Positions 24,409 to 30,222 of a stretch of 32,482 nt of DNA are shown in pieces (positions within the stretch are counted from its first letter, which is position 1; every line of letters begins with the position of its first letter). Both the position numbers and the translations under genes were made by a program. The DNA is from Parcubacteria group bacterium M6-OD1-1 (GTDB lineage Bacteria > Patescibacteriota > Minisyncoccia > GWC2-36-17 > M10-OD1-4): contig LSNK01000002.1 of NCBI GenBank assembly GCA_003056085.1, forward strand, positions 174,575 through 207,056, in the 5' to 3' direction. Under the pieces are notes generated by a model. It was not told the origin of the DNA, did no database searches, and saw only the letters and a program-made list of their open reading frames with translations.

Positions 24409-24437
24409 TTGACAATAAAAGACAAAATGTATAATCT
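24409..24437 (+). promoter_or_regulatory. Promoter of the candidate structured RNA
   Basis: TTGACA (24409-24414), 17 nt, TAATCT (24432-24437); an alternative TATAAT overlaps at 24430-24435. Initiation would fall at about 24444-24446, exactly where the 5' arm of the long closing stem begins. Confidence 0.65.
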
Positions 24438-24445
24438 TAGGTATT

Positions 24446-24715
24446 AAGGGTATAGGATTTAAATATAATCCAATTTAGAATCTAAAAAATAAGATGACCT
24501 TAGAGTGCAATGACAGTAGAATGACTTTATTATATTGAAAAGAAGCAATGGGAAAATCTGTTATTTAGCTTCCCGGAGGGCGGGTCAATTTTAGTCATAT
24601 TTCTTCGTTACTCGTCGCTTATGATACATAAAAGTATCGCTTCACTCCTCGTGTCTCGAATATAACTAAAATTGCCTCCGCTAAATTGATTCTATTTAAA
24701 TCCCATACCCTTTTT
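24446..24715 (+). ncRNA. Candidate structured non-coding RNA, unrecognised family
   Basis: The first 33 nt (24446-24478) pair with the last 32 nt (24681-24712) at about 30 positions, and T5 (24711-24715) follows. An adjacent helix continues inward: CGGAGG (24574-24579) with CCTCCG (24675-24680), and 24586-24600 with 24660-24674 (14 of 15 pairs). A 95-nt side region (24479-24573) includes a GAAGC / GCTTC hairpin. A consensus promoter starts exactly at the 5' arm, and tRNA-Leu begins at the next base. No long open frame is present. The RNase P, SRP and tmRNA signatures I know are absent; 6S-like RNA is possible from the closed-ends shape only. A transposable inverted-repeat element is the main alternative. 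Confidence 0.55.
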
Positions 24716-24802
24716 GCCGGAGTGATGAAATTGGTAGACATGCACGACTCAAAATCGTGTGGAGGCAACTCCATGAGGGTTCAAGTCCCTCCTCCGGCAC
24801 CA
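24716..24802 (+). tRNA. tRNA-Leu(CAA)
   Basis: Acceptor GCCGGAG / CTCCGGC, anticodon stem CACGA / TCGTG with loop CTCAAAA giving anticodon CAA (reads UUG), a long class II variable arm, T arm with GTTCAAGTC, discriminator A and an encoded CCA end. The long variable arm and A73 agree with leucine identity. Its first base directly follows the T-run of the candidate RNA. Confidence 0.95.
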
Positions 24803-25916: not shown

Positions 25917-28900
25917 CTAAACAATTACATTAACCAATCTTCCTTCAACGAAGATTGTTTTTTTAATATCCTTTCCTTCTATCCATTTTTGAGCTTTTTT
26001 ATTTTCAAGAACCAATTTTTTTGCATCTTCTTCCGATATGTCAGAATTTACCAAAACAACATCTCTGACTTTTCCATTTACCTGAATAACAAAATTTATT
26101 TTTTCTTCTTTTACTAAACTCTCATCGTAACTTGGCCACAAAGAAAGATAAATACTTTCTTTATTGCCAATCATACTCCAAAGTTCTTCTGCTATATGCG
26201 GAGCAAACGGAGACAAAAGAATTAGAAACTTAGAATAGCAAACTAAAGAAATTTCTGCTTCTTTTTCCATATTATTTACCAATATCATAAGCTGAGATAT
26301 CGCCGTATTAAAATTAAAACTTTCAATATCTTCAGACACCTTTTTAATTGTTTTATGCAACAATCTTTCCAAGTCGTCATTCTTTATTTTTAATTCTTGA
26401 TCATTGATTCGTTCGTGCATTTTCCAAACCTTCTCCAAAAATCTTCTTGGACCGACAATGCTGTCCGTACTCCAAGAAACCGATTGCGAAAACGGTCCCA
26501 TAAACATCTCGTATACCCTTAGGGTGTCTGCCCCAAAAGTCTCCACTATATCATCCGGATTAACAACATTCCCCCACCTTTTTGACATCTTTCTTCCATC
26601 TTCTGCGTTTATAAGCCCTACATGCTGAAGCCTTTCAAACGGCTCTTTATAATTCACCGCCCCAATATCATACAAAAATTTATGCCAAAAACGAGCGTAT
26701 ATTAAATGCCGTGTAGCGTGTTCCGCTCCACCAACATACACATCAACAGGTGACCAGTATTTTTCTTTTTCTTTATCAACTAAAACTTCATCATTTTTAG
26801 AGTCAATATATTTTAAATAATACCAAGAAGAACCTGCCCATTGCGGCATTGTATTAGTTTCTCGTTTGCCTGCGCCTCCGCATTTTGGACATTTTGTATT
26901 CACCCACTCAGAAATCCCCGCAAGCGGAGACTCCCCTGTTCCCGTCGGCTCATAACTTTCAACTTCGGGCAAAATTACAGGAAGATTTTTCTCAAACACA
27001 GGTACCGCTCCACATTTTTCACAATGAATAATAGGTATAGGTTCACCCCAATATCTCTGTCGTGAAAAAACCCAATCACGCAGTTTGTATGTCGTTTTCA
27101 TCTGTCCCCCGACAAATTCAGTAATAGCCTTTTTCGCTTCTTCACTGTCCATTCCATCAAACTTGCCGGAGTTTACCAACCTGCCATCACCATCAAGATA
27201 AGTTGTCTTTTGTATTTGTTTCCAAATAAATTTCTGATGGTCTGGAGTTAGTAGGTCTGACACCTCATTTTCATCAACCCAAACGAGAGTATGGAGGGAT
27301 TTTTCTTTATCAGAAACTTCAACTTGAGATTTAATATTTTTAACCTCGGCAAGATATGTATGAGCAATAGCATATCTATTTTGATTTTTATGTGAAGCAC
27401 AGTAACGAGCTGAGGTTATCCAATTAAGTTTTTTTGTTATAGTTACTCCGGTTATTCCACTCTCTTCTTCAATTTCAGACAAAACTGCTTCTTCCGAAGT
27501 TTGTCCATTTTCTATACCACCCATAATTCCCGTTGTAATACCCTCTAAAGTTCCGTGCCAGTTCAAAAGAGCGTATTTGCCAGTTTCAGCATCTTTCAAA
27601 TACACAATAACTGTCTCTCTTTCAACCTCCTCTAAGCCATTTTGGGGTGGATTTTTAGAATCATCCGCGCAAGGAATAATAACTTGTTTAATCTCCAGTC
27701 CAAACTTTTTTGCAAATTCAAAATCTCGCTCATCATGCGCAGGCACCGCCATGATCGCCCCTGTCCCATAATGCGCAAGAACATAATCGGCAATAAAAAT
27801 CGGCAACTCTTCGTTATTCGCTGGATTTATCGCTTTTACACCTTTAAGCTCAACCCCCGTCTTTTCTTTCCCTTCTGCAGTACGCTCAATCTCTGTTTTT
27901 TTTGCTACTTCATCGCGATACTTTTCCACCTCGTCCCAATTTTCAATTTGCCCCTTCAACTCATCAACAAGTTCATGCTCCGGAGCAAGCACACAATACG
28001 TCGCGCCAAACAGAGTATCTGGCCGAGTGGTAAATACTGTAATTTTTGGAGTTTGTATAATTTCCTCCAATAATTCCGGAAACTTATCTGTTCCCATATG
28101 CCTTTGTACGAAGTGTCCATGACCTTTTAACTCTTTTACTTTTGCCTCCAATCTATCCTTAAATAATTTAGCAGTATCTTTTCCAATTTCTTCTTCATTA
28201 TCTGAAGTAAAAACAATAATATTTTCTACTTGTAATTTAATATTGCCGTTAACACTATAAGTATAAAATTCTCCGCAAATAGGATTTTCATCATTCTCGT
28301 CCTTCCATGGAGCAACCATTATTAATGACTTAACTTTTTTACCTGTTTCACCAAGCCATCGCACAAGAAATGATGCACCACAACTGTGTCCTATAAGAAT
28401 TGTATTTTCATTAATGTCCAATTTTTCAAAAACTTTTTTATGCTCTTCATATTTAGGCGCCCATGGATGTGGCATTAAAGGAAGCTCAACCTTTACTCCT
28501 GCTTCTTCGAGTATATTTTTAATCCAAGGTTGCCAGTGTTTGTCATAAGTTCTTGTTCTATGATCCATCTCTTTTTCAGCATTTGACGGACATCCATGAA
28601 TAATAATTACATTGTTTTTTTTATCGTTGGTCTTTGAACTTTTTACTTTAAACTCTATCTCCGCCCCCTCTGATTTCCCTATCCAATTTTTTTGAGACTC
28701 TTTTATGGATTCCGGCCAATTTAAATTTTCCAAATCCTCAAGCATTCTGTCGGCATAATCCGTAATTTTTAAAACCCATTGACGCATCATTTTTTTCTCA
28801 ACCACTGTTCCGCACCTCTCACACTTATCCCCCTCCAAGTCTTCGTTTGCAAGTCCTGTTTTGCATTTTGGACACCAATTTATCGGTTCATTTGACTCAT

Positions 28901-29348
28901 ACGCCAATCCTTTTTTAAACATCTGTAAAAATATCCACTGTGTCCATTTATAATATTCAGGATTAGTCGTATTTATCTCTCTCTCCCAATCATAATTAAA
29001 ACCAATTTTCCCCAACTGCTCTTTGAATCTTTTTATATTTTTCTTAACTGCCAAAGAAGGATGGACTTTGTTTTTAATTGCATAATTTTCCGCAGGAAGA
29101 CCAAAAGCATCCCACCCCATGGGGTGCAACACATTAAACCCGTTCATTTTTTTAAAACGAGAATAAACATCAGTAGCAATATATCCCTTTGGATGTCCAA
29201 CATGAAGCCCTTCACCCGACGGATATGGGAACATGTCTAAAACATAGCACTTGGGCTTGTCTTTTTGTTCGGTGGTTTTATAAACCCCACCTTCCTTCCA
29301 CTTTTTCTGCCACTTTTTTTCTATTTCTTTGTGATTATATTCTTTCAT
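25917..29348 (-). CDS. leuS: Leucyl-tRNA synthetase with inserted serine-hydrolase and Nudix-like domains
   Basis: Charges tRNA-Leu; class I. HIGH motif GLHVGH (47-52), zinc knuckles CPKC...CERC (159-179) and CEKC...CPKC (776-823), KMSKR (920-924), anticodon domain from about 965. The CP1 editing domain has the Thr-rich TVFTTRPDTLFG (437-448) and VPAHDERD (535-542) with the conserved Asp542. Length is 1143 against about 860. Insert 1 (about 236-433; DNA about 28050-28643) is an RBBP9-like alpha/beta hydrolase: GHSCG with Ser322, Asp383 and His412 as likely triad; it resembles the free protein at 31840-32427. Insert 2 (about 560-722; DNA about 27183-27671) is Nudix-like: Gly610, Glu625, Glu628, Glu629, Gly631 retained, but Gln616 and Ser624 replace the box's Glu and Arg. 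The frame is continuous. The roles of both inserts are unknown. Confidence 0.95.
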   Translation of the reverse strand: MKEYNHKEIEKKWQKKWKEGGVYKTTEQKDKPKCYVLDMFPYPSGEGLHVGHPKGYIATDVYSRFKKMNGFNVLHPMGWDAFGLPAENYAIKNKVHPSLAVKKNIKRFKEQLGKIGFNYDWEREINTTNPEYYKWTQWIFLQMFKKGLAYESNEPINWCPKCKTGLANEDLEGDKCERCGTVVEKKMMRQWVLKITDYADRMLEDLENLNWPESIKESQKNWIGKSEGAEIEFKVKSSKTNDKKNNVIIIHGCPSNAEKEMDHRTRTYDKHWQPWIKNILEEAGVKVELPLMPHPWAPKYEEHKKVFEKLDINENTILIGHSCGASFLVRWLGETGKKVKSLIMVAPWKDENDENPICGEFYTYSVNGNIKLQVENIIVFTSDNEEEIGKDTAKLFKDRLEAKVKELKGHGHFVQRHMGTDKFPELLEEIIQTPKITVFTTRPDTLFGATYCVLAPEHELVDELKGQIENWDEVEKYRDEVAKKTEIERTAEGKEKTGVELKGVKAINPANNEELPIFIADYVLAHYGTGAIMAVPAHDERDFEFAKKFGLEIKQVIIPCADDSKNPPQNGLEEVERETVIVYLKDAETGKYALLNWHGTLEGITTGIMGGIENGQTSEEAVLSEIEEESGITGVTITKKLNWITSARYCASHKNQNRYAIAHTYLAEVKNIKSQVEVSDKEKSLHTLVWVDENEVSDLLTPDHQKFIWKQIQKTTYLDGDGRLVNSGKFDGMDSEEAKKAITEFVGGQMKTTYKLRDWVFSRQRYWGEPIPIIHCEKCGAVPVFEKNLPVILPEVESYEPTGTGESPLAGISEWVNTKCPKCGGAGKRETNTMPQWAGSSWYYLKYIDSKNDEVLVDKEKEKYWSPVDVYVGGAEHATRHLIYARFWHKFLYDIGAVNYKEPFERLQHVGLINAEDGRKMSKRWGNVVNPDDIVETFGADTLRVYEMFMGPFSQSVSWSTDSIVGPRRFLEKVWKMHERINDQELKIKNDDLERLLHKTIKKVSEDIESFNFNTAISQLMILVNNMEKEAEISLVCYSKFLILLSPFAPHIAEELWSMIGNKESIYLSLWPSYDESLVKEEKINFVIQVNGKVRDVVLVNSDISEEDAKKLVLENKKAQKWIEGKDIKKTIFVEGRLVNVIV

Positions 29349-29604: not shown

Positions 29605-30222
29605 ATGAAAGGAGACATAACACTCAAAATACTCGAAACTCTTAAGAAAAACACCTTAGACAGCATAGACTTGCTTGAGGCATTTTTAACTTCCGGCTAT
29701 GGATCATCTTTTGCCGCTATAGAATACAATTGGAATCGCATATCTAAAAAAAGAAGTTATAAAAATAGCACTGAGAAAGCAAAAGATATCTTAACAAAAA
29801 AAGATTGGGATAAAATAAATAAAAGATTTAATGCCATGTTAAGTAAATTAAAAAAAGATGATTTGATAGAAAAATCCAAAAATAAATCAAAAATTATTAT
29901 TAAAATAACAGAAAAGGGAAAGAAAAAAATAAACGATATAAAAAAGAAAAATTCCATATTCCCTAACAATAATTATAAAACAGCTAAAAATAATAATTTT
30001 ATACTTTTTATGTTTGACATTCCGGAAAAAGAAAGAAACAAGAGAAAATGGATAAGATCTGTTTTGACTCGTATGGAATTTAAATTAATTCAAAAAAGTG
30101 TCTGGCTTGGAAAAACAAAAATACCGAAAGAATTTTTAAATGATTTAAGAAAATTGGGAATAATCCAATTTATAGAAATCTTAGAAATAACCAAAACAGG
30201 AAGCCTCAAACAACTAACTTAA
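29605..30222 (+). CDS. PaaX/Cas2-like winged-helix regulator
   Basis: Protein of 205 residues with two parts. Residues about 5-115 look like a winged-helix DNA-binding region (KILETLKKNTLDSIDLLEAF then LSKLKKDDLIEKSKNKSKII, ITEKGKKKI), very rich in Lys. Residues about 130-200 resemble the Cas2-like ferredoxin fold of PaaX-type repressors: FILFMFDIPEKERNKRKWIR, LTRMEFKLIQKSVWLG, then an Ile-rich strand. DIPEKER carries the Asp typical of the Cas2 position, but there are no cas genes or repeats, so a transcriptional repressor is more likely than an adaptation nuclease. Two identical 42-bp palindromes flank it; they may be its operators or unrelated hairpins. Sequence is AT-rich even for this window. 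Confidence 0.75.
   Translation: MKGDITLKILETLKKNTLDSIDLLEAFLTSGYGSSFAAIEYNWNRISKKRSYKNSTEKAKDILTKKDWDKINKRFNAMLSKLKKDDLIEKSKNKSKIIIKITEKGKKKINDIKKKNSIFPNNNYKTAKNNNFILFMFDIPEKERNKRKWIRSVLTRMEFKLIQKSVWLGKTKIPKEFLNDLRKLGIIQFIEILEITKTGSLKQLT

Follow-up and report, generated by a model that had tools for sequence, protein, structure and literature searches.

A palindrome before tRNA-Leu in a Parcubacteria genome: probably one decaying copy of a non-autonomous mobile element of Patescibacteria

Introduction

What is the long stem that stands directly before a tRNA-Leu gene in the Parcubacteria group bacterium M6-OD1-1? The stretch of DNA analysed here, referred to as the window, comprises 32,482 nucleotides of contig LSNK01000002.1 and belongs to a 766-kb genome that is 97% complete (G000); the nearest relatives of its parA among named genomes are Parcubacteria/Patescibacteria. 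An earlier note had taken the stem for part of a regulatory or housekeeping RNA of an unlisted family, with its own promoter and terminator. CPR/Patescibacteria make up a large and mostly uncultured share of bacterial diversity; their genomes are tiny, and many inserts in their rRNA genes are unexplained. A study of these inserts (PMC11270868) classifies group I and group II introns, leaves many short ORF-less inserts uncharacterised and compares some of the latter with RNase III-type intervening sequences (IVSs); its text does not mention hairpin, palindrome or intergenic. In this study, we describe a family of dispersed palindromes and conclude that positions 24446–24712 are probably one copy, now in decay, of a palindromic mobile element of Patescibacteria that is non-autonomous and MITE-like or REP-like in kind.

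Methods

The covariance model R1 (208 positions, 61 pairs) was built from 27 copies of the element, the window copy being left out. The genome sample contained one genome per species, many of them fragmented at these repeats, and the gene context of copies was taken from mechanical ORFs. E-values of the short-calibrated models are rough; despite this, bit scores of 60–225 leave little doubt about the matches. Genomes and loci are denoted by G and L numbers where they have to be told apart.

The palindrome before tRNA-Leu

The features of the locus are as follows.

24409–24437, plus strand: predicted tRNA-Leu promoter (TTGACA, 17 nt, TAATCT), recurring in G005–G008 and lying outside the element
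24446–24712, no strand assigned: whole palindromic element, probably one decaying copy, delimited by the outer repeat, the R1 match and the borders of the G016 copies
24446–24478, plus strand: left arm of the outer stem P1 (terminal inverted repeat), pairing with the right arm at 30 of its 33 positions
24478–24572, plus strand: left hairpin P2 (arms 24478–24495 and 24556–24572), from the R1 alignment; its G.A rod is degraded
24572–24580, plus strand: mini-hairpin P3, CCCGGAGGG; the form CCC-N-GGG recurs in nearly all copies
24580–24681, minus strand: right hairpin P4 (arms approximately 24580–24601 and 24659–24681), from its inverted repeat and the R1 alignment
24599–24662, minus strand: putative surviving tandem-G.A hairpin, readable on the minus strand (model R2, 59.3 bits, E 2.9e-15)
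24681–24712, plus strand: right arm of P1, from the inverted-repeat alignment with the left arm
24716–24802, plus strand: tRNA-Leu, anticodon CAA, the invaded transcription unit (ARAGORN; Rfam tRNA 56.9 bits)

The geometry described in the earlier note, a 33-nt arm pairing with a 32-nt arm at about 30 positions and a second helix inside the stem, is borne out. The arms form 30 pairs with two mismatches and one bulge, and the outer-stem score of 25 was reached by none of 2000 dinucleotide shuffles (mean 8.4, sd 1.5, maximum 19). The outer stem encloses the further helices P2, P3 and P4, and the inverted repeat 24586–24601/24659–24674 within P4 is 94% complementary. Folded as RNA, the whole stretch gives -69.6 kcal/mol (z -3.3), equalled by none of 100 shuffles. 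As the note had also stated, a run of five T (24711–24715) follows and the tRNA begins at the next base.

Scanning the window with Rfam 15 returned the tRNA as its sole match and thus leaves a structured sequence belonging to no Rfam family; the models of 6S RNA, RNase P RNA, SRP RNA and tmRNA were unmatched, in agreement with the note, which had seen no RNase P or SRP RNA signatures. Group I and group II intron models had no match, at the gathering threshold or at E 0.5, in the window and 48 copy-holding loci. R1, on the other hand, matches 24477–24683 over its full length (model positions 1–208 of 208) with 129.6 bits and E 4.7e-36; for a model built without any window sequence, this match is the strongest proof that the structure is more than chance.

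Two neighbouring genes are recorded here as separate observations. A leucyl-tRNA synthetase of 1143 aa (25917–29348, minus strand), encoded near the tRNA-Leu, has an unusual architecture in which a serine-hydrolase-like domain (269–425) precedes the editing domain (434–565) and a NUDIX domain (579–708) follows it. A 205-aa protein (29605–30222, plus strand) carries a C-terminal PaaX-middle/Cas2-like domain.

A dispersed family of copies

Of 383 genomes sampled from the Patescibacteria class of the window, R1 detects the element in 58, distributed over 49 genera; a single G016 copy used as the query finds 23 carriers among these 383 genomes. A phylum-wide sample yields ten carriers among 379 genomes, six of them outside the class. 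The intact element measures approximately 270 bp and occurs in one to about 20 copies per carrier genome. R1 counts about 20 places for G178, against about a dozen for G347 and about nine for G223; since the element almost equals its reverse complement, a place is as a rule hit on both strands. Among relatives, DNA similarity reveals about a dozen or more copies in G016 and one in G006, and a second copy was not found in the genome of the window. Searches of phages and plasmids with blastn and of viral contigs with two exact patterns gave no matches.

Seven compared copies in G016 are 87–97% identical over 268–279 nt. Their borders are sharp, with similarity stopping at the ends of P1, and the flanks are therefore unrelated. 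Intergenic copies lie in every orientation to the adjoining genes: 18 between co-directional genes on the same strand, 16 on the opposite strand, 11 between divergent and four between convergent genes. A role as a terminator or 3' end was rejected, since convergent genes are not preferred. No consistent target-site duplication was seen across about 50 copies, and TA is common beside some of them. The dispersed copies that the earlier note had named as the mark of a mobile element are thus present, while the target-site duplications that it had named with them are inconsistent.

Nested palindromes occur inside copies L015, L020 and L119, and short derivatives consist of a P1-like part only or of a single hairpin. 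In L015 and L020 (G016) the P4 loop houses a smaller palindrome, CCCCGTTAGAAGT...ACTTCTAACGGGG, with CTC on both sides, a possible 3-bp duplication. The tandem-G.A rod also occurs in solitary single-hairpin elements scattered in G001 (L336, L339, L342 and L344), G248 and G190, and G001 is the sister genome of the window.

Mirrored G.A hairpins and covariation

P1 forms terminal inverted repeats of approximately 25–30 bp around P2, P3 and P4; it is the most variable part of the element between genomes, and its ends fall into several subfamilies. In many genomes the T-loop consensus of tRNAs, GTTCRANTCC, is often found in the inner part of P1 (canonical subfamily, for example L104, L105 and L110). 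An origin of P1 from tRNA was rejected: a T-stem is missing nearby, and neither of the two best solo matches in G016 is a tRNA.

The nominally unpaired parts of P2 follow a regular scheme in which one or two G-C pairs are succeeded each time by a 2x2 loop; the loops are GA opposite GA in 25, 17 and 16 of the 27 copies. GA/GA loops alternating with G-C are the pattern of tandem sheared G.A pairs, and such pairing is predicted for P2. When P2, reversed P4 and the single hairpins are aligned together, 94.9% of the cells are paired, and C-G pairs are swapped for G-C between P2 and P4. Judged by this joint alignment, P2 on the plus strand and P4 on the minus strand are one and the same hairpin, a putative rod of tandem G.A mismatches. 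The element is therefore a mirrored pair, either strand having one G.A hairpin within the 5' half. For the window, R2 recognises the minus-strand hairpin (24662–24599) and no G.A hairpin in P2; with the plus-strand rod decayed and the minus-strand one kept, the window copy looks like a decayed relic.

Standard pairs occupy 93.5% of the cells, 48 of the 61 pairs have changed on both sides, and pairing falls to 32–44% when the partner is slid. Template switching can correct the arms of a long inverted repeat against one another in the DNA, and covariation alone is for this reason no demonstration of a functional RNA. What the covariation here shows is maintained palindromy, not a working free RNA; that the mismatched motifs are conserved does argue that something recognises them. 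Strand preference bears on the same point. On the plus strand, P2 has 41 G.T (G.U) against 14 A.C cells, whereas P4 leans the other way with 19 against 29, a contrast with a Fisher p of 0.0006 on non-independent cells and 0.09 by columns. A single RNA strand is therefore not supported, and a free RNA read from one strand was rejected; the bias is weak evidence in favour of mirrored hairpins rather than one functional transcript.

Occupied and empty tRNA-Leu sites

In five genomes (G000, G005, G006, G007 and G008) parA adjoins tRNA-Leu(CAA), and all five carry TTGACA-N17-TAATCT between the two genes (TACGCT in G005). This reading of the promoter is preferred because the arrangement recurs in related genomes; the alternative reading, TTGACA/TATAAT, has a spacer of merely 15 nt. 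The element is absent from the junction in G005, G007 and G008 and present in G000 and in G006, which shares its genus with G007 and G008 and has the element directly 5' of the tRNA. Since the promoter is kept in genomes without the element, and the element of G000 and G006 lies between promoter and tRNA, the promoter is that of the tRNA. The consensus promoter of the earlier note thus exists and recurs in G005–G008 without being the element's own, the element being shared by G006 alone of these four. Judged from this arrangement, it is the ancestral tRNA-Leu promoter and lies outside the element, which appears to have been inserted downstream of it. The element and the tRNA are very probably on one transcript, as the note had suggested.

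The T-run fares differently: in G006, ACCCTAAAC replaces it 3' of the element, so the T5 that the note had assigned to the element as a terminator is not kept. The flanks in G006 permit a TAA duplication and those in the window do not. The copies in G000 and G006 lie approximately 5 nt upstream of the same tRNA gene. The two genomes share a broad branch of the tree without coming out as sisters in it, and their tRNA-Leu copies may go back to one ancestral insertion or to two; the recurrence before one tRNA could also mean a site preference or a retained role.

Copies in rRNA genes and spacers

Copies lie in rRNA spacers upstream of 23S (L103) and downstream of 16S (L118), and four lie within rRNA genes. 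L117 (G362) has 259 nt inserted near position 460 of the 16S model, and L115 (G159) has 279 nt inserted near position 229 of the 23S model; in both, the remainder of the rRNA gene aligns well around the insert. L121 and L123 are also within 16S genes. All four are opposite in orientation to the window strand, a number too small for inference. In L123 (G183, 500–1628) the 16S rRNA gene is broken by approximately 1.1 kb, of which the element is only part.

Discussion

A mobile palindrome is supported by the family and its dispersal, the sharp borders, the copies in tRNA leaders and in rRNA genes, and the occupied as against the empty tRNA-Leu site. Such an element would move as DNA by means of an enzyme supplied in trans, for which the P1 ends, the G.A hairpins or both are natural candidate signals. 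When transcribed, it would fold into a compact rod of hairpins, and insertions in rRNA and tRNA transcripts would therefore be tolerated. RNase P has the established function of removing tRNA 5' leaders; at the window it would cut the element off as a leader at the 5' end of the tRNA. A search of G016 for an autonomous partner found that close matches to the end sequences were all elements, contig ends or short hairpins, in a fragmented assembly.

The stem before tRNA-Leu probably does not represent an RNA gene in its own right. A structured RNA with a regulatory or housekeeping function, encoded by several genes of its own and maintained because its fold is under selection, could claim the strong covariation and the conserved mismatched motifs, and the window copy would indeed be transcribed, from the tRNA promoter. 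That promoter is nevertheless the tRNA's; presence is patchy, orientation to genes is random and copies sit within rRNA genes, while the G.U/A.C contrast speaks against one transcript and the arms are also correctable as DNA. We consider such an RNA, and with it the central proposal of the earlier note, quite unlikely. Highly improbable is a local attenuator in which P1 and the T5 end transcription ahead of the tRNA and so regulate it: a stem followed by TTTTT does stand directly 5' of the gene, yet the T-run is replaced in G006, three relatives lack the element altogether, a stem around a 200-nt loop does not have the shape of an intrinsic terminator, and the terminator scan lists none there.

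Closer to the mobile palindrome is a BIME/REP-type unit, whose paired inverted hairpins travel as single-stranded DNA through the action of a Y1 (RAYT-like) transposase. Two inverted, imperfect hairpins per unit, single-hairpin versions, intergenic dispersal and the lack of a consistent target duplication are all shared with REP/BIME. At approximately 270 bp, however, the units are far longer than REPs and have a long outer closing stem, and Y1_Tnp is found in 11 of 15 carriers against eight of 15 non-carriers, while the four multi-copy genomes G347, G223, G242 and G337 have none. A Y1/RAYT (IS200-type) transposase as the mobiliser was rejected, being not clearly associated with carriers, and a true BIME/REP system is accordingly very unlikely. 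By its features the family is MITE-like and BIME-like, with no clear RAYT association. It resembles bacterial MITEs in being short, non-coding, dispersed and able to fold into hairpins, in its nested insertions, and in combining terminal inverted repeats with near-identical copies in unrelated flanks; it differs from them in having no consistent target duplication or found parent transposon, and in keeping covarying inner stems and conserved G.A motifs that ordinary MITEs do not need. Rickettsia palindromic elements, compared here by description, are likewise palindromic, dispersed, non-coding inserts in reduced genomes; they differ in being known for in-frame insertion in protein genes. L117 (16S) and L115 (23S), ORF-less inserts of 260–280 nt at a helix of an otherwise intact rRNA gene, resemble IVSs and the unclassified CPR rRNA insertions (PMC11270868) in a way that the window copy, lying in no rRNA gene, does not, and the new family differs from those insertions in also lying between protein genes and before tRNAs. 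The open-access literature searched held no description of such a palindromic family, which is apparently undescribed.

More tentatively, and with rather more doubt than confidence, the family may be an unrecognised class of mobile element, in which mirrored tandem-G.A hairpins provide one working hairpin per strand or transcript in any orientation, serving both as a signal and for tolerance in essential RNAs. If this is true, the hairpin would be the signal for the enzyme and would also let the insert be tolerated in single-copy 16S and 23S rRNA.

The mobile palindrome carries a caution for similar loci, namely that a long inverted repeat may covary strongly without giving rise to a functional free RNA, and a warning that 16S genes can carry the element. 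R1 is ready for annotating Patescibacteria genomes. The family poses the question of which enzyme moves it, and it ties some of the CPR rRNA inserts to a mobile element that also lies between protein genes and at tRNAs.
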